This document shows, piece by piece, positions 13,501 through 61,397 of a stretch of 64,000 bases of DNA. Positions within the stretch are counted from its first letter, which is position 1. Every line of letters starts with the position of its first letter. Location: NCBI RefSeq assembly GCF_047495875.1, contig NC_092461.1, positions 51,346,511-51,410,510 on the forward strand, read 5' to 3'. The translations under genes were made by a program, and so were the position numbers. The notes under the pieces are model-generated. The model was not told where the DNA came from. It did no database searches and saw nothing but the letters and a program-made list of their open reading frames with translations. The stretch is from Pithys albifrons albifrons (lineage: Eukaryota > Chordata > Aves > Passeriformes > Thamnophilidae).

Positions 13501-13848
13501 AGGTGGAAGCAATACAGAGATTACAGAAGAACAGCTAAAACCTCCTTACAACCCATCTGTGAATTCACTCTTTTCGAACCTCAGACTTCGGGCAAAAATC
13601 ACATTTGAATCCCAGGACCTGATTTCTAAATTTCGCATTGTTCTTGATGATAAAGAGCTGTTACTAAGAAAAAGTCTTGTACTTTTATGAAATTCCAACT
13701 CCTTCATGGTCTTTCCAGTGGCTTCAGCTATCTCATGGTGAGTTGTTACTGAATTGAACTCAAAATCCAAATCCTTCGAGCTACAGTCAACTAATTATTT
13801 TTAAACATTTACATTTGAAAATACGATATTCCAAGGTAATAAACTATA

Positions 13849-14024
13849 TTTTCTGTCATTCACCTACTGCCAGTGTTCCCACAGATCCCTGCTAGGCCAA
13901 TGTGAAATCTTAATCTATCTGAAGTTAACAATCAAATTTTCTGTCATTCACCTACTGCCAGTGTTCCCACAGATCCCTGCTAGGCCAATGTTAAATCTTA
14001 ATCTATCTGAAGTTAACGATCAAA
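13849..14024. repeat. 88-bp tandem duplication (two copies)
   Basis: Two head-to-tail copies of an 88-bp unit, 13849-13936 and 13937-14024, both start TTTTCTGTCATTCACC and both contain CCACAGATCCCTGCTAGG. I see only two substitutions between them: a G/T in the ATGTGAAATC versus ATGTTAAATC segment, and an A/G near the end. The unit is not simple sequence and does not resemble a transposon that I recognise. It looks like a fairly recent local duplication. Confidence 0.95.
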
Positions 14025-25332: not shown

Positions 25333-25488
25333 CTTCATTCTAGGAAAATGACCAATATATTGAAAACTGTACACTTACATTCTAGTCAAACATACAGAAT
25401 AACCAGTTCACTTCATTCTAGGAAAATGACCAATATATTGAAAACTGTACACTTACATTCTAGTCAAACATACAGAATAACCAGTTCA
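25333..25488. repeat. 78-bp perfect tandem duplication
   Basis: Two adjacent 78-bp copies, 25333-25410 and 25411-25488, both start CTTCATTCTAGGAAAATGAC and both end AATAACCAGTTCA. I find no difference between the copies. They sit about 300 bp inside intron 3 from the exon 3 donor. The identity implies a very recent duplication, a variable-number locus, or an assembly duplication. Confidence 0.95.
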
Positions 25489-25790
25489 CATTATCACTGA
25501 TGATAAGTCTTTGTCAGCAAAAACATTTGGTTTTGGTTGATCTCAGAATATGTAGGGCAGCCTTGAGAATGCCGGAAGTTCTTCAAAACAAATATTATAC
25601 AAAATTTGGAACAGTAACAAAAAATGAAAACATTCTGAAAAAATGACAAAGCACTGGGTAAAAGAACTATTGAGTTGCCAATAGTTTCAAAACTAAATAC
25701 CCACTCATCACTGGCAATGTTTAAATCACAGAGAGACATAACTTAAGGGCTAAAATGTAAGTTACAGGGAGAAAAGAGAAAAATGCTTAC

Positions 25791-41102: not shown

Positions 41103-41227
41103 TCATCATCATCATCATCATCATGGCTAGGCTTCGCGAACAAAGATTTGAGAAGGGCACTACCCATGCTTGCTGCAAGCGTGCTGGTGGCTAAAAAGGC
41201 CGATACGGGATAGGCAGGTCCGGTCAC
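41103..41227 (-). mobile_element. 5'-truncated copy of the RTE-like LINE (3' terminal 125 bp)
   Basis: The minus strand matches the last about 105 bp of the RTE-like element at 50692-54669. It reads TGACCGGACCTGCCTATCCC, then GTATCGGCCTTTTTAGCCAC, CAGCACGCTTGCAGCAAGC, AAATCTTTGTTCGCGAAGCC and TAGCCATGATGATG. The 3' end continues into about seven TGA/ATG units (forward 41103-41124). The larger copy carries the same tail reduced to two units. Similarity stops abruptly at 41227, consistent with premature termination of reverse transcription. It encodes the C-terminal Cys/His finger and nothing else. Confidence 0.93.
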
Positions 41228-50680: not shown

Positions 50681-50691
50681 ACTGTACACCT
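50681..50691. repeat. Left target-site duplication of the RTE-like LINE
   Basis: ACTGTACACCT lies immediately left of the LINE and is repeated exactly at 54670-54680. The 11-bp perfect direct repeat defines the insertion as 50692-54669 and shows target-primed integration. Confidence 0.93.
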
Positions 50692-50738
50692 CTTCTCCGG
50701 GGACACCCCCTTGTCGCGGGGGAGAAGCTTGCGTGCCC
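50692..50738 (+). promoter_or_regulatory. Candidate HDV-like ribozyme core at the LINE 5' terminus
   Basis: The first seven bases of the element, CTTCTCC (50692-50698), are exactly complementary to GGAGAAG (50721-50727), giving a possible P1. Directly before the second P1 strand, CCC (50708-50710) and GGG (50718-50720) can form P3 around the 7-nt loop TTGTCGC, the position and type of loop L3. GGG-A-CAC (50700-50706) could pair with GTGCCC (50733-50738) as P2. The fold would cleave precisely at the 5' boundary set by the target duplication. HDV-like ribozymes are known at the 5' ends of R2- and RTE-type LINEs. P4 and the catalytic J4/2 cytosine are not clear, so activity is uncertain. Confidence 0.55.
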
Positions 50739-51449
50739 TCATGAGGTTGAGAGCTATGCTGGAGGTGGTTTGTGCCACCGGTAGGGTCTCCCATGCCAGA
50801 GAGGTCTCAGCTGAAGGGTCAGACAAAGTGTGTCCACGGGCAGGATGGGCTCGCTAGCCATCTGGCAACCATCCTAGGAGAAGGACAACTCCAACCCCAA
50901 ACCCGGGCAGATGGAGCTCGCTTAGCCCTGTAAGGCCATTCATCTAAGAGAAGGATACTCTAACCAAACCTACGTCCTGAGGCATTCGCTGTCACCATCC
51001 AAGCTCACTAGGCCGTGGCAGATGAACCTTAGGAGTAAAGGGTGGGGCCAGTTCTGTGCACGCTGTGCCTCACCTAAAAAATCCATTGCGCAGGCTTGAA
51101 GGGTTCACCCACATTGCAAAGTCCTGTAGCAACAGGTGAGGGTCGAAAACAGCAGGTGATAGGAAGGAGCTGGAAGCCGCAGACCCAACCCTGCATGCAG
51201 GCGGTTCAGGATATGGGTCATTAGAGACTTGACCCCGGAGATGACAGTCTCTTGCGGCAGCATCCTGAATGACCAAGCAGCCTTTTCTAGGGACAGCATT
51301 GCTTGCTCCACACGGAGAGGGGCCTAGCAAAGGTGGCCTAAACAAAGCTCATCTCCACACCCGGTTGGATAACCGCGGCCAACTGGCATCTTCCATGCGG
51401 TCAAACAAAAACAAAGAGATTTCAAAGGCATACACCTGTCTGCAAAGGT

Positions 51450-52377
51450 GTGCTCAAACTAGCACTCGCATATTGGAACATCAGAACCATGCTTGATACT
51501 GGGGATAGTGGATGTCCTGAGCATCATCCTGCTCTAATTGCCCACGAACTGTCACGGCTCAATATTGACATTGCTGCTCTCAGTGAAGTTTGTCTTCATG
51601 AGGAAGGCAGCCTTAAAGAACATGGTCCTGGCTACACACTCTACTGGTCAGGCAAACCCAAAACCGAAAGACACCTTTCAGGAGTTGGCTTCATGATTAA
51701 AAACTCCATTGCCTTCAAACTTGAAAATCTGCCGACAGGTCATTCCGATCGCATTATGTCCTTACGCCTCCCTCTACACAACAGGCAACATGTTGTTCTT
51801 TTTAGCATATATGTCCCAACTCTCCAAGCTGACCCAGCGGAAAAAGACAAATTCTACACAGACCTGGACCGCCTCACCCAAAATGTTCCTGCAGATGATA
51901 AGATCATAATCCTTGGTGACTTCAACGCCAGAGTAGGTAAGAATTCTGAAGCCTGGAAAGGAGTCCTGGGCAAGCATGGCACTGGAAACTGCAACGACAA
52001 CGGACGCCTCCTGCTAGCGTTTTGCGCAGAACGGCAGCTCACCATCACCAACACTATCTTTCAACAGAAAGACAGCCTGAAGACAACCTGGATGCATCCT
52101 CACTGACTATATCTTAGTACAACAGAGAAATGTCAGTGATGTCCATCATACTCGAGTGATGCCGAGTGCAGAATGTCAAACAGACCACCGCCTTGTGCGC
52201 TGCAAACTTAACCTCCACTTCAAGCCCAAACCTAAGAGAGGCGGCATTCCAAGGAGGAGGCTCCAAGTCAGCAATCTTCAAACAGCCACAGTGAGAGACA
52301 GCTTCCAGGGAAACCTTCTAACTAGACCTAAAGATAATCCCATAGATCCCTCTCCTGAGGCGCTTTGGCAACATTAA
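51450..52377 (+). pseudogene. RTE-like LINE endonuclease domain (frameshifted)
   Basis: The first part (51450-52106) encodes LALAYWNIRTMLD, IDIAALSEVCLHEEG with the catalytic glutamate region, SGVGFMIKNS and IIILGDFNARVG. These are the signature motifs of the apurinic/apyrimidinic-like endonuclease that nicks target DNA for LINE integration. A small deletion after TTWMHP ends this frame. The domain resumes in another frame (52156-52377) with CQTDHRLVRCKLNLHFKPKP, which contains the conserved Asp-His pair near the C-terminus of the nuclease. The true start codon is uncertain: the leucine-rich LALAYWNIRT context follows an upstream segment that seems to be in a different frame. Confidence 0.88.
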
Positions 52378-54628
52378 AAGTTGCATCCTGCAGTCCTCTG
52401 AAGAGTCCCTAGGGTTCTCCTCCAAGAAAAACAAAGACTGGTTTGATGAGAACAATCAAGAGATTCAGGAATTGCTGAAGAAGAAGAGAACTGCTCACCT
52501 AGCACACCTTGCTCAGCCATCTTGCCATATAAAAAAAGCCGCCTTTCGTCTTGCATGCAGCAAGCTCCAACAGAAACTTTGAGACATCCAGAACAAATGG
52601 TGGCTCGACCTAGCAGAAAAGACACAACTATGCGCAGATTTGGGTGACCAAAGAGGATTCTATGAGGCCCTGAAAGCAGTGTACGAACCCACACACCAGG
52701 TTCAAAGCCCCCTACTCAGTGGAGATGGTCAACTGCTTCTAACAGATAAAACCTCCACCCTGAACCGATGGTCTGAGCACTTTCAGACTCTCTTCAGTGC
52801 CAACCGTGTAGTCCAAGGCTCAGCAATTCAGCACATTACACAACAACCGGTGAAACATGAATTGGATGCAGCCCCTACTATGGGAGAGATACTCAAGGAC
52901 ATACAACAGGTGAAAACTGGCAAGGCAGCTGGGGTTGATGGAATTCCACCTGAAATCTGGAAGCATGGAGGTCAAGCACTCCATGCCAAATTCCACGAGC
53001 TTGTTGTGCGTTGCTGGGAACAAGGGGAACTACCACCAGATCTCCGTGATGCAGTCATTATCACCCTGAACAAGAAGAAAGGAGAAAAATCAGACTGCTC
53101 AAATTACCGAGGTATTACTTTGCTCTCCATTGCTGGTAAAATCCTTGCAAGAATACTTCTGAACAGATTAGTACCCACTATTGCAGAAGATCTTCTACCT
53201 GAAAGCCAGTGCGGTTTCAGAGCCAATAGGAGCACCACAGACATGGTGTTTGTTCTCAGACAACTGCAAGAGAAGTGTAGGGAACAGAACAAAGGTCTCT
53301 ATGTAACCTTTGTTGACCTCACCAAAGCTTTTGACACTGTGAGCAGAAAAGGCCTGTGGCAGATCTTGGAACGTTTAGGATGTCCCCCCAAGTTCTTCAA
53401 AATGATCATCCTGCTACATGAGGATCAGCGTGGACAAGTCAGATATGGCGATGCACTCTCTGAGCTCTTTCCAATAACCAATGGTGTGAAACAAGGTTGC
53501 GTTCTTGCACCAGCTCTATTCACAATCTTCTTCAGCATGATGCTCCAAAGAGCCACAGCAGACCTCGATGAAGAAAACGGCATCTACATCCGATATCGTA
53601 CCGATGGAAGCCTATTCAACTGAAGGCGACTGAAGGCCCACACCAAGACCCTGAATCACCTTCTCCGCGACCTGCTTTTTGCTGATGACGCCGCCCTCGT
53701 TGCTCACACAGAAGCAGCTCTGCAGCGCTTCACATCCTGCTTTGCAGAGGCTGCTGAGCTTTTTGGGCTGGAAGTCAGCCTGAAGAAGACAGAAGTTCTC
53801 TACCAACCTGCACCTCAAGAAGTCTTCCATCATCCTCACATCACCATAGGCAATTCAGAGCTTAAGTCAGTCCAGCAGTTCACCTATCTGGGAAGTATCA
53901 TTTCCTCAGACGGTAAGATTGACAAAGAGATAGACAACAGGCTAGCAAAGGCATACAAAGCCTTTGGAAAACTCCATAAAAGAGTCTGGTGCAATCAGCA
54001 TCTGAAGAAAAGTACAAAGATTAGTGTCTACAGAGCCATTGTACTGTCTACTCTTTTATATGGGTCTGAATCATGGGTCATCTACCGCCACCACCTGCGG
54101 CTTCTTGAACACTTCCATCAGCGCTGCCTCTGTTCAATCCTAAACATCCACTGGGCTGATTACGTTACCAATGTGTCTGTTCTTGAACAGGCAGGGGTCA
54201 GCAGTATCGAGGCCATGCTGATGAGAACGCAGCTGCGCTGGGCAGGGCACGTCTCCAGGATGGAGGATCACCGCCTTCCGAAGATTGTGCTCTATGGTGA
54301 ACTCGCCACCGGCTGCCGCAAGAGAGGAGCCCCGAAGAAGAGATACAAGGACTCCCTGAAACAACACCTCAGCCTTGGCCATATTGACTGCCACCAATGG
54401 TCCACTCTGGCCTCCAGTTGGGATTCATGGAGACACACCATTCACGATGCTGCTGCTTCCTTTGAGAATGCATGGAGAGTCAGTCTTGAGGAGAAAAGAC
54501 AACGCAGAAAGAACTATTCCTTGCCAATGTCACCTAGGGAGGTGTTTCGCTGTGCCTTTTGTGACCGGACCAGCCTATCCCGTATCAGCCTTTTTAGCCA
54601 CCAGCACGCTTGCAGCAAGCGTGGGTAG
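52374..54628 (+). pseudogene. RTE-like LINE reverse transcriptase with C-terminal Cys/His finger (stop-interrupted)
   Basis: After a frameshift at the end of the endonuclease, one frame runs to the natural stop at 54626-54628. It is interrupted by TGA at 52580-52582 and TGA at 53621-53623. Visible motifs are GKAAGVDGIPPEIWKHGG, SNYRGITLLSIAGKILARIL, ESQCGFRANRSTTDM, VTFVDLTKAFDTVSRKGLW, GVKQGCVLAPALFTIFF and the catalytic RDLLFADDAALVAH with FADD at 53678-53689. Then come the thumb-like LKSVQQFTYLGSIISSDGKI and the tail LRWAGHVSRMEDHRLPK. The last residues, FRCAFCDRTSLSRISLFSHQ and HAC, form a Cys-Cys-His-Cys finger that may bind nucleic acid. The second stop separates the fingers from the active site, so the copy cannot make an intact enzyme. 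Confidence 0.9.
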
Positions 54629-54669
54629 TGCCCTTCTCAAATCTTCGTTCGCGAAGCCTAGCCATGATG

Positions 54670-54680
54670 ACTGTACACCT
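54670..54680. repeat. Right target-site duplication of the RTE-like LINE
   Basis: ACTGTACACCT follows the short ATG-type tail and matches 50681-50691 without mismatch. The identity of the repeats suggests the insertion is not very ancient, although the coding region has already picked up several lesions. Confidence 0.93.
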
Positions 54681-55156: not shown

Positions 55157-55168
55157 AAGGTGGACTAC
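55157..55168. repeat. Target-site duplication of the composite SINE (tail side)
   Basis: AAGGTGGACTAC at 55157-55168 pairs with AAGGTGTACTAC at 55537-55548. The repeat is 12 bp with one mismatch and flanks the composite SINE exactly. It shows that the SINE inserted independently of the neighbouring LINE. Confidence 0.8.
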
Positions 55169-55536
55169 ATATGCATGTATGGCCAAACTTCAAGAAAAAG
55201 ATTTGGGAAGGGTTCTCCCCATGTGGGTGTGCCCTTCCAGCCTGCACAGTGGATTTTTTAGGTCAGGCACAGCGTGTGCAGAACTGGCCCCACCATTTAA
55301 GTCCTGAGGGTCCACTTGCCGTGGCCAAGTGAGCTTGGACAGTGACAGTGAAGTCCTCGGGACTGTCACAGCACCCGTTACTAACCGGGGCTGACCCTGC
55401 TGAGCATCCGAGATCTGATGGGATGGGATGACAGGGAGGCATTGAACTGCCAGGGGACGGTCCCACTGAGACTCGAACTCAGGTCCTTGGGATTCAGAGT
55501 CTGGAGTGCTCTCCATTACACCACTGGACTGCCTCA
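55169..55536 (-). mobile_element. Composite tRNA-Gln/5S-rRNA SINE with an RTE-derived body and tail
   Basis: This is a 368-bp element on the minus strand. Its head (55533-55459) matches tRNA-Gln, with A box TGGTGTAATGG, anticodon-region GACTCTGAATCC and B box AGTTCGAGTCT. A second RNA-derived piece (55430-55363) resembles 5S rRNA: GATCTCGGATGCTCAGCAGG, GTCAGCCCCGGTTAGTA and ACGGGTGCTGTGA. The 5S stretch that normally holds box C is missing. The body (about 55350-55221) aligns with 50978-51117 in the 5' region of the RTE-like LINE, sharing GGTGGGGCCAGTTCTG and CACGCTGTGCCT. The end (55220-55169) resembles the LINE's last about 46 bp. It is therefore probably mobilised by that LINE. Confidence 0.85.
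55459..55533 (-). ncRNA. tRNA-Gln-derived Pol III promoter head of the SINE
   Basis: A 75-bp region shows the tRNA-Gln order of blocks and both internal RNA polymerase III boxes (A box 55523-55513, B box 55479-55469). It is not a functional tRNA gene: the acceptor-stem ends do not pair well, the anticodon arm has lost its stem pairing, and it is fused to downstream SINE sequence inside the target duplication. Confidence 0.85.
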
Positions 55537-58500
55537 AAGGTGTACTACTCACAGGAAGATTGTACTGTGGCAGTCCCTGCAGTCTGAGGAGCAGACTGCT
55601 CTGCTCTTTCCACCACCACTGCTACCTGGATGAGAATCACTGACCAAGGGACAGGTCGGTGGCTGGGGTGGAAAACTCTGCAGCAGCTGCAGGAAAATGT
55701 ACAAGGGCAATAACTCAGAGCCTGCATAGAATTTTCCAAGCCTGTTCCTGAGACTTCTGTGTTTCTGAAAACCCTCCAGAGATTTCTAATTTAACAGCTG
55801 TTTCAAGACAACCAAACCAAGCAAGCAATTAAAATCAAGTTGACTTTGTTTTCCTTCTAGAGTATCTCACACTGCGGGTAGAAATTGTCTGCTGTGTATT
55901 TTTCAGCAGCACTGAAGAGATTACCCAAAGATTAGTAGTTTTCTGCCTTACCTAGTTTTCATAAGAGAAAAGAGCCCACCCCAGTATACAGCATCTATCT
56001 TAAACAATGGTCCTATGATCAATCTTTAGGAAATTAGTAACTTATAAGTTTTTATGCTTCCAAAGCACCGAAGAAATGTAATTAAACTAAAAGTACAAAA
56101 AGTGTTTCATAGTCTGCCACAGAAGAGCACTTGTGTTTTGCACAGGAGAACATGACTGGAGAGAGAACTAGAAGGTGAGCCCTGTGATTCAGAACAGTAT
56201 ACATCAACAGGATCACAAATGCTAATCTCAAAACCTGTGCAGAGTAGAGGGGGAAACCATTACAGATAAATCAGATTTATGCTTTGGTCTGCAAACATAA
56301 CAGATAAAATAGTGGATGCTTTCCCATTGGAGTCTTTCAGATCAGATCTCATTTTAAGAGCTCAAGAAAACCCCCATTTCTTTCTCAAATGACTATTGGC
56401 AAATTCATGATATTATATAAGCTCCACTTGAAACACAAAATTACTTTTGACTCACTTGTCTTAGGTAAATTCACAGTCAAGTGCCTCCTCTGAAAAAAAC
56501 CTAAGAAAAAATTAAAGGCACAGGATATCAGTGTATGTGCAGCAGATGAAGACTAGAAAATTTGCAGGAGAGTGGGAAAGTGGTCTTATTCCCTTTCATA
56601 TCAGAGTGTTCTAGCAAGAAATGTATTATCACTATACTTAAATAAAAGATCAGGCACCTTAACCAGCAACTAGACAAAAAGAAAGGAAAAAACCTCAAAT
56701 GACACACATAGACTTAATACCAGAACTGTTTTCTACAGGCTTCAAAATGTTGACAGCAATTCTCAGTTGCACAAGATGCTGCATCTGTGGGGTCACAAAA
56801 CAGGTTTGGGCAAATCCTTACCTGGTAGAAACTGTCACTGTTGTACTGAATGCAGGATGGTCACTCAGGCAAGTTTAAAATAAATCTTATTTGTTTACAA
56901 CTCCTATGATGTAAGGAATGTTAGGTGACCTGAGATTAACCTCTTCTCACTATGACATAAAGATCATTGATTTAAAATTTATCTTAGAGAATTGAGACAA
57001 ATTTGAGTGATATTTTTCCTTTTTAAAGGAGCATTAGTATCTTTTAAAGTCAGGTTTTAAGATCACAGGTGTTTTGCCATACCTCTGATTGCAGTCCATA
57101 CATAGTACAGAGAAACATCTTGCCAAAATACATAAACTTTTAGAGATGTATTTTAATCCATGTCTGTTCATAGGTACTTCTACTAAACCCCTTTTGGCAG
57201 CAACAGCACCAAAGGGATTTTCGCTTTTTTTTTCTCATGCACTGTGGAGAAAATTCATCAAACAAATCCACGTTAATTAGATTTGAAAGAGTTTGAGAAG
57301 ATATTACTAATAACAGTACAGAAAAAAAAAAAGGAATCCAAATGAGCCCGGTGTCTGAATAACCTCCATTAATAAAAAAAAAATCAGTAGATGGATGAAT
57401 CTAAAGGCAACTAACGGCAAACCTCCCCATATTGGTCCATTCTCCCTATCTCAAAACCAGAAATCAATTTGCTTGTGAGATCAAGACATCCAAATTATCA
57501 TTTTTTAAAACTACAGGCTAACAAGGTTAACATTTTTCTCAAGCTGACATACAATTTTTCCTTCTACTGTAAAACTGAAACAAAAAAAGAGCAAAGCATT
57601 CTCCATACATTCTGTCAGAAATACTGACTTAATCAGGTAATTGGCATTTAAGAGATTACAAATTGAAGCTAAAAATTCACTATCGCCATCACAGTGAAAA
57701 TGTAAGACTTGGGGTCAACCGAAGAAAGAACTTACATTTATTTCACTACTTTGAAATTACTGCAGACATTTGGTAACAAGAACGTGAAAAATTACTGCAA
57801 TGCAGTTTTTGACAGATAGTATTTCTTGTTGAGACAGAACAGAAAGAACTGTAGAGCTCAAAGATTGTAATCATTTCATACATTTCTAAGCACAAGGTAC
57901 TTCTTTAAGCAAAATATTTCACCCCTACAGCTGCTATCTCTTACATGTACTGTCATCCTTCATCTTCATCCTCCCACAAGTGTAAAGGAAGGAAGAAATG
58001 ACAAGTTTTCAATTTTGAAAACAAGGAAGTTTTATACAATATAGCAGGAATAGATAAAAGAATCCCATGTGCATTATAAGTTTATGCAATTATATCAAGA
58101 TACTGCAAGTTGTTTCCTTTCTCAATTTGGCATTAAAGATACGCAGGCATTTGCAAAAACGTGTTTTAAAACAAGTAGGAATTTATATGAGCTTTTTCTA
58201 ACAGATGTCTCCCAACAGGGGTCAATGCCAGGTTGTTCTTCTCCAGCCCAGATTCGCAATCTGTTCTTACCTGATTTAGTATCTTACTGTTCTGCTGTTC
58301 AAAAGATTATATGTATTTTAAACACCAAGAAACAAGATTGGGTAAGACAAAGCCTCTGTATGAATCTCTAAAGTTGTGGTGGCTTTGATCCAAGTTTACC
58401 TGCACAAACTTCATCTGAAAAACAGAAGTTTGAGAAAAGTAAAACTGATCACAAGGTACAGCTGATAAATGCTCTCCAAGATAGGGTGGATATGCCTAAG

Positions 58501-59819: not shown

Positions 59820-60484
59820 GTCACAGAATCCCAGAATCACTCAGGTTGGAAAAGACCTCTGAGATCTTCCTGTCCAGCCTCTGATCAAACATGACCATGT
59901 CAACTAGACCATGGCACAAAATGCAACATCCAATCTTTCCTTGATAACCTCCAGGGATAGTGACTCCACCACCTCTCTGCGCAGCCCATTGCAATCTCTA
60001 ATAACTCTGTGATGAAATCCCTCCAAATGTCCAATGTGAACCTCCCCTAGTGCAACTTCAGACTCAGTCCTCCCATTGCCTGGGAGAGGAGACCAAACCC
60101 CCAGCTGGATACAACCTCTTTCAGGTAGTTGTGATAAGGCACTGATAATGTACACCTTCTCTTCTCCAGGCTAAACTTCAGCTCCCTCAGCTGCTCCTCA
60201 TAGAATGTGTGCTCCAGACCCTTCACCAGTTTCCCTGCCCTTCTCTGGACACACTCCCAGCACCTCAATGTCCTTCCTGCAGGGAGGGGCCCAGAACTGG
60301 ACACAGCGCTGGAGGAGCCGCCTCACCAGTGCTGAGGACAGGGGGACAGCCCTAGTCCTGCTGGCCGCACTATTTCTGATATTTGCCAGGATGCCACTGG
60401 CCTTCCTGGCCTCCTGGGCACACTGCTGGCTCATGTTCAGCTGCTGCCGACCAACACCCCGCAGGTCCTTTTTCGCTGCCATGC
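59820..60484 (-). mobile_element. CR1 LINE fragment with the C-terminal part of ORF2
   Basis: The forward strand begins CACAGAATCCCAGAATCACT and contains AACCTCCAGGGATAGTGACT and CTTCTCTTCTCCAGGCTAAA. Minus-strand translation gives [37 protein letters not shown] and [19 protein letters not shown]. These are diagnostic of the C-terminus of CR1 ORF2 reverse transcriptase. Frameshifts separate these pieces. The 5' truncation point abuts the CpG island directly. Confidence 0.93.
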
Positions 60485-61200
60485 GGTGGAATGTCCGTGC
60501 TCCCGAAGCGCGACCATGCCGGTGACAGCCACCCCTCCGTCGGGACGGGCAGTGGGATCCGCAGGGCGAGCCCGACGCTGCAGCCCCGAGCAGGGCTGGC
60601 CCGGTAGCACGGGCGCCAACCCAGGGCCGCATTTCGGGGGCCGGGGGACAGCACACGCTGCACGACTTTAAAGGGAGGCCTCGGCAAGAGAAGGAGCCGG
60701 GGCTGAGCCCGCCGAGGCGCCGGGGATGGTGCCGGCGTGCCCCCCCCGGGAAGCGGGAGCCGAAGCCGGGGCCCCCGGCAGAAGCTGCAGCCCGGCGGAG
60801 GGGGCCGGCAGCCCGGGGGAGCGCTTCCCGAGCGGGGATTCCCTGTGAGAAGCAGGAGGAAGAGGAGAAGGTGAAGGAGGAGATGAAGGAGGAGGTGGTG
60901 GGCAGAGCAAAGACGCACCTTCCCCGCGCAGATCGGGCGGCGGCGCCGCCGGCACAGCCCCAGACTCGGCTCCTGCCCGGCCGCGGACGGGGGAGGAGGA
61001 GCCGCCGCGGGGACGAAGGGCGGGCCCGGCCCGGCGGTGCCCGCGGGAAGCGGCCGTGGCGCCTCCGAGCCCGCCCCGAGGCGAGCTGGGTCCGGTCCCG
61101 GCGCTGCCACCGAGCCCGGGGGCCTGAAAACCCTCGTTCAGCATCACCAGCGCCTCGTCCATCATCTCCACCCCCTCCAGGGGAGTGGCAGCCGCCGTGT
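60485..61200 (-). promoter_or_regulatory. CPQ: CpG island, probable CPQ promoter
   Basis: This block of about 700 bp is strikingly GC- and CpG-rich, unlike everything else in the window. It sits about 23 kb upstream of the ATG exon, where a housekeeping-type promoter for the widely expressed CPQ gene is expected. A GC box (GGGGCGGGCT on the minus strand, about 61078-61069) is present, and I see no TATA box. It could also start transcription towards the right. Open frames crossing it are by-products of high GC. Confidence 0.7.
60919..61060 (-). other. CPQ: Candidate non-coding exon 1 of CPQ
   Basis: On the minus strand a donor-like CGGGGAAG|GTGCGT occurs with its exon boundary at 60919, inside the CpG island and downstream of the GC box. 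An exon from somewhere near 61060 to 60919 would join to the exon 2 acceptor at 37735. The transcription start is a guess, and other donors in this GC-rich block cannot be excluded. Confidence 0.35.
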
Positions 61201-61207
61201 GAGCGGG

Positions 61208-61397
61208 GTGAGACACTGGCACAGGTTGCCCAGAGAAGTTGTGGATGCTCCATCCCTGGATGTGTTCAAGGCCAGGCTCGATGGGGTTGTGAGCAACGTG
61301 GTGTAGGGGAAGGTGGCCCAGCCTATGCCAGGGGGATTGAAACGAGATTGTCTTTAAGGTCCCTTCCAACCCAAACCATTCTATAATTCTGTGATGA
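61208..61397 (+). mobile_element. CR1 LINE 3' end
   Basis: The segment starts GAGACACTGGCACAGGTTGC and continues CCAGAGAAGTTGTGGATGCT, GGTCCCTTCCAACCCAAACC and ATTCTATAATTCTGTGATGA. This is the intact CR1 3' UTR with its octamer-type tail. Its 5' truncation lies directly against the right side of the CpG island. Confidence 0.93.

Follow-up and report, generated by a model that had tools for sequence, protein, structure and literature searches.

In SINEs, which are short parasites of genomes, the promoter is borrowed from the gene of a small RNA and the tail from a LINE. The closest described relatives of the element reported here are the SINEs moved by AviRTE, a LINE made up of a 5' UTR of about 800 bp, an ORF of 3.2 kb and a 3' UTR of about 40 bp, for a sum of about 4.04 kb (Suh et al., 2016; PMC4844689). 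All the AviRTE-moved SINEs described in that study have a tail in common that joins the AviRTE 5' UTR to its 3' UTR, and differ in their heads, which are given as tRNA-Glu in ManaSINE1, 5S rRNA in GymnSINE, GC-rich in BuceSINE and ManaSINE2, and 28S in MeloSINE; the tRNA-Glu and 5S heads are reported there separately (PMC4844689). More generally, RTE elements are described as often yielding bipartite forms, and these at times acquire an RNA-derived head (PMC7245038).

The element lies within the 64-kb stretch of DNA that we analysed (hereafter the window), at positions 55169..55536 of the minus strand, and is 368 bp long in the sense 55536 -> 55169. Read on that strand, it consists of a tRNA-Gln-like unit, a 5S rRNA-like unit, a piece of the AviRTE 5' UTR and a piece of the AviRTE 3' end. 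The initial annotation of this DNA had proposed these four parts in this order, with no strand given, and all four are present. It had also reported a 12-bp target duplication, which does span 12 positions but is not exact: the 3' copy in element sense (AAGGTGGACTAC, 55157..55168) and the 5' copy (AAGGTGTACTAC, 55537..55548), neither of which was assigned a strand, are identical at 11 of 12 bases; when flanks were drawn at random from the window 20,000 times, 25 draws matched as well as this. An open frame runs along the minus strand of the element from 55552 to 55190. Judging from its sequence, the element is very probably a SINE with a fused tRNA-Gln and 5S head and an AviRTE 5' UTR and 3' tail, likely transcribed by RNA polymerase III and mobilised by AviRTE.

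The tRNA-Gln-like head (55458..55530, minus strand) was recovered by the Rfam model RF00005 at 35.7 bits, above the cut-off of 29, while ARAGORN, run in bacterial mode, returned no tRNA in the whole window. In alignments with ten human tRNAs, both tRNA-Gln references scored 65 and the next best, tRNA-Lys, 35; tRNA-Glu was rejected as the source of the head, as its two references scored 15 (Glu-CTC) and 14 (Glu-TTC). Promoter motifs were sought with consensus patterns for the A and B boxes. An A-box-like motif, TGGTGTAATGG, was found at 55513..55523 (minus strand) with the pattern TRGYNNARNGG, and a B-box-like motif, GTTCGAGTC, at 55470..55478 (minus strand) with the pattern GWTCRANNC, which has a second match in the SINE at 55447-55439. 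Neither the longer A-box form TRGYNNARNNGG nor the stricter B-box pattern RGTTCRANTCC had a match. With its A- and B-box-like motifs, the tRNA unit would represent the promoter-bearing head of an AviRTE-mobilised SINE.

The 5S rRNA-like unit (55368..55457, minus strand) directly adjoins the tRNA unit and spans almost the whole of 5S, except for a gap of about 26 nt (5S nt ~76-101). Over 85 aligned bases it is 77.6% identical to human 5S rRNA, a reference of which a 25-base core is also printed in one paper. Local alignment against this reference gave a strict block of 49 bases with a score of 53, compared with a maximum of 24 among 2,000 dinucleotide-preserving shuffles and with 23 for the highest-scoring of 2,642 tiles taken elsewhere in the window. 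The Rfam model RF00001 gave the unit 16.7 bits, below its cut-off of 38 (E = 1), with the match drawn at 55343-55451. The covariance models thus sided with the initial annotation on the tRNA and not on the 5S part, although the latter stands in direct alignment. Since the missing stretch is where box C of the 5S promoter lies, we infer that the 5S unit would be a passenger as far as promoter function is concerned.

The rear of the SINE leads to AviRTE, of which the window holds two further copies. The first is a near-full-length LINE of 3,978 bp (50692..54669, plus strand), about 500 bp from the SINE, whose reading frame is broken by frame changes and stops. It is flanked by an exact 11-bp target duplication, ACTGTACACCT, at 50681..50691 on the left and 54670..54680 on the right (no strand assigned), and its length between these duplications is consistent with that published for AviRTE. 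Pfam domains for an endonuclease (Exo_endo_phos, 1.3e-11) and a reverse transcriptase (RVT_1, 8.6e-28) were identified in it. We assigned this LINE to AviRTE because all ten AviRTE primers printed in PMC4844689 map onto it in order, with one to four mismatches each and 24 in all. The internal primer pair spans 50976-51101, that is 126 bp end to end, equal to the published length (PMC4844689). As a control, the best of 100 shuffles per primer had two to five mismatches; taken alone, full1F (four mismatches) is no better than chance and full2F (three) ties its best shuffle. For the primers int-F and full4R, the best sites in the window are the SINE and the copy at 41 kb.

The reverse transcriptase piece of this LINE has 3,714 relatives; within the best 120, those with a legible bird name come from Lathamus discolor (83% identity over 79% of the query), Manacus candei (89% over 57%) and Willisornis vidua (70% over 74%), and the top-scoring ones are other proteins, at 73-80% identity. 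Further named entries among these 120 come from molluscs, shrimps and a soft-shelled turtle. They agree with the placement of AviRTE among the RTEs of aquatic animals in PMC4844689. In IMG/VR, a 17-base pattern from the AviRTE 5' UTR occurs in three contigs, and a protein search with the reverse transcriptase piece matched ten stretches by pattern, none of which was confirmed. The second copy in the window (41118..41227, minus strand) is truncated at its 5' end, has a GAT-repeat tail and, across 110 bp, shares 96.4% identity with the LINE 3' end; its flank resembles CR1.

The larger of the two AviRTE pieces in the SINE is a 143-bp fragment of the 5' UTR (55221..55363, minus strand), where 55363-55221 matches 50974-51114 of the LINE at 83.7% over 141 aligned bases (E = 5e-35). 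The origin of the body in the 5' region of the LINE, as first proposed, is thereby upheld. The other piece, of about 45 bp (55179..55223, minus strand), takes in the 3' UTR together with a few preceding bases. Its match to the neighbouring LINE taken by itself is weak (E = 0.23), and an unrelated match of 23 bases is better (E = 0.066); it aligns with the AviRTE 3' end of the second copy at 41123-41168, at 80% over 45 bases (E = 4e-4), and the score of the tail against that copy (41118-41227) was reached by none of 5,000 tail shuffles, in line with the LINE-derived 3' tail of the initial annotation. The combination of AviRTE 5' UTR and 3' UTR in a bipartite tail, the hallmark of the AviRTE SINEs in Suh et al. 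(2016), is therefore found here as well.

The initial annotation had further taken these pieces for an internally deleted copy of the RTE-like LINE found 500 bp away. The family is indeed the same, but that LINE copy is disfavoured as the direct parent: outside CpG sites, the SINE differs from it by 14%, whereas the difference between the window's two AviRTE copies is 1.1% (1 of 93 sites), so that the neighbouring LINE is not the direct source of the SINE. The SINE would instead go back to another lineage of AviRTE, or to an older one.

As a side observation, the target duplications of the LINE (50681-50691) and the SINE (55537-55548) have GTACACCT in common in element sense, which may reflect chance or a target preference, with two insertions to compare. 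The LINE target carries TTTTT 10-14 nt ahead of a duplication that starts with A after T. Compared with the Tn-TA insertion signature described for Bov-B (PMC13295347, section 3.2), the AviRTE LINE target fits and the SINE target fits loosely, with a shifted boundary; with n = 2, the likeness is anecdotal.

The SINE occurs once in the window, together with its target duplication, but relatives elsewhere speak against a single-copy sequence. When its open frame was searched as a protein, nine candidates were obtained, five of them with E values up to 0.01, and all five of these are antbird proteins, predicted from Willisornis vidua and encoded on contigs of five different lengths. No other bird appeared among the five in this predicted-protein search, an outcome that annotation habits may explain. 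These copies were read at the level of predicted proteins. In all five the reading crosses the junction between the tRNA part and the 5S part; three of them (P0242, P0244 and P0245) continue into the reading of the AviRTE 5' UTR. In P0242, the residues ahead of the SINE part resemble a fragment of CR1 reverse transcriptase, and this copy may sit within a CR1 element.

As five predicted proteins on five contigs carry the same fusion, the tRNA-5S element represents a family. Details of the 5S part bear on how the family spread. In the 5S core, the window sequence departs from 5S at six of 13 codons; at four of these six the residue of the window is common to all five antbird copies, and at the remaining two to four and three of them, respectively. 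At each of these remaining two codons, one antbird copy retains the 5S residue. Moreover, the three W. vidua copies that cross the gap in the 5S unit all lack the same stretch as the window. That several copies have derived changes in common points to spread of the family from altered masters, rather than to repeated independent chimeras, as far as can be read from these sequences.

The proposed life cycle of the SINE would run as follows. Transcription by RNA polymerase III would begin at the tRNA unit, using its tRNA-type A and B boxes; the AviRTE proteins would then recognise the 3' tail and copy the SINE RNA at a nicked target, leaving the duplication. As to its origin, the element would have arisen by template switching, which had been suggested from the outset and is plausible, or through a bipartite AviRTE derivative gaining a head. 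In the simplest version, a tRNA head would later have been added in front of a SINE that was already 5S-headed.

How does this architecture compare with known SINEs? Like AmnSINE1, the element combines 5S-derived and tRNA-derived units; however, AmnSINE1 is given as 5S, then tRNA, then Deu domain (PMC3234267), whereas here the tRNA comes first and the body derives from AviRTE. The initial annotation, according to which known 5S/tRNA SINEs of vertebrates usually begin with 5S, was right that the order here is reversed, as the comparison with AmnSINE1 shows. It had also regarded a body taken from the 5' region of a LINE as unusual. This main point of novelty falls, because a 5' UTR and 3' UTR tail is already known for the AviRTE SINEs as presented in PMC4844689. 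From the AviRTE LINE itself, the source family of both rear pieces, the SINE differs in having no coding region. SINE3, the 5S-headed class, is likewise different, as the 5' end here is a tRNA unit and 5S nt ~76-101 are missing.

Two further systems offer parallels for a change of head. PittSINE, from pittas, is also a suboscine SINE and, according to its authors, originated through the gain of a different tRNA head, for which they suggest template switching; unlike the present element, it is mobilised by CR1, and the term '5S rRNA' is absent from the text of that paper (PMC5729268). HaSE3 of Helicoverpa is 5S-derived, has a body and tail in common with a tRNA-headed SINE, and ends in an RTE-like tail, but it is an insect element in which, according to the source, 5S replaces the tRNA head rather than following it (PMC3272025). 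In the paper texts that were searched, no description of a fused tRNA-Gln and 5S head turned up. Within that literature, the joint head is the new part of this element; the kind of element, an AviRTE SINE with a bipartite tail, has already been named.

The main alternative is that the element is GymnSINE, with a tRNA-Gln unit that simply went unmentioned in a short legend, a reading to which we give slightly less than an even chance. GymnSINE is described as an antbird-lineage SINE with a 5S-derived head and a bipartite AviRTE tail (PMC4844689, legend), and here too we find a 5S-derived unit, a bipartite AviRTE tail, and relatives that all come from an antbird. On the other hand, the legend names 5S only (PMC4844689), and the carboxypeptidase Q (CPQ) encoded in the window is nearest to a cluster named after a manakin. 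As to the 5S-derived head of GymnSINE, the 5S unit of the present element comes second, after a tRNA unit, and scores below the Rfam cut-off. Besides a GymnSINE seen in full, the element may be a GymnSINE capped by a tRNA, or a third family.

A promoter hand-over would relate the two kinds of element by descent: a GymnSINE-like, 5S-headed AviRTE SINE would have gained a complete tRNA-Gln unit in front, then lost box C of the 5S unit and kept spreading from the tRNA promoter. We advance this scenario tentatively and regard it as possible but doubtful. If it were true, the tRNA-headed and 5S-headed AviRTE SINEs of suboscines would form one lineage in which the class of Pol III promoter was swapped, and this would contradict their separate emergences as published.

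The element is unlikely to be ManaSINE1 or a subfamily of it. ManaSINE1, a tRNA-headed SINE moved by AviRTE and reported from manakins and tyrant flycatchers, does have a tRNA head and a bipartite AviRTE tail in common with it, and the CPQ nearest to that of the window belongs to a manakin, but that head is published as tRNA-Glu, and the legend mentions no 5S part (PMC4844689). By contrast, the tRNA-Gln of the present element is followed by 5S, and its affinity to tRNA-Gln rather than tRNA-Glu is clear from the alignment scores given above. Finally, although chimeric retrocopies produced by template jumping do occur in the human genome and the window holds a single copy, a one-off chimera of tRNA, 5S and AviRTE-derived RNA that founded no family is highly improbable, given that five antbird predicted proteins agree with it in the fusion, in the 5S gap as far as they cover it, and in derived changes in 5S.

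Under the preferred reading, that of an AviRTE-mobilised SINE with a tRNA-Gln and 5S head, a tRNA unit followed by a 5S unit that has lost part of its promoter core may be an intermediate on the way from one class of promoter to another. Such an element would allow one to test whether a SINE changes its head by replacing the old unit or by adding another ahead of it, and to do so in a system that is young and dated by the horizontal transfer of AviRTE. The interesting question is whether this SINE is a link between the published 5S-headed and tRNA-headed families.

As for the genomic surroundings, tblastn located coding exons of CPQ (carboxypeptidase Q) on the minus strand at 37691-37275, 25999-25793 and 4036-3785, and the SINE, which is on the same strand, is situated upstream of the first of the exons located. 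The trimmed and joined translations of these exons match birds best among the best 120 of 4,820 hits, first the manakin Pseudopipra pipra (94% identity), with Morphnus guianensis (93%), Sapayoa aenigma (92%) and a crow (92%) also among them. By these matches the host is a bird and perhaps, by a small margin, a suboscine passerine. Tandem duplications were observed at 25333-25489, where a 78-bp unit is present twice at 100%, and at 13848-14024, where an 88-bp unit is present twice at 97%. An island at 60250-61250 reaches up to 74% G+C, against 40% for the window, and is possibly the promoter region of CPQ.
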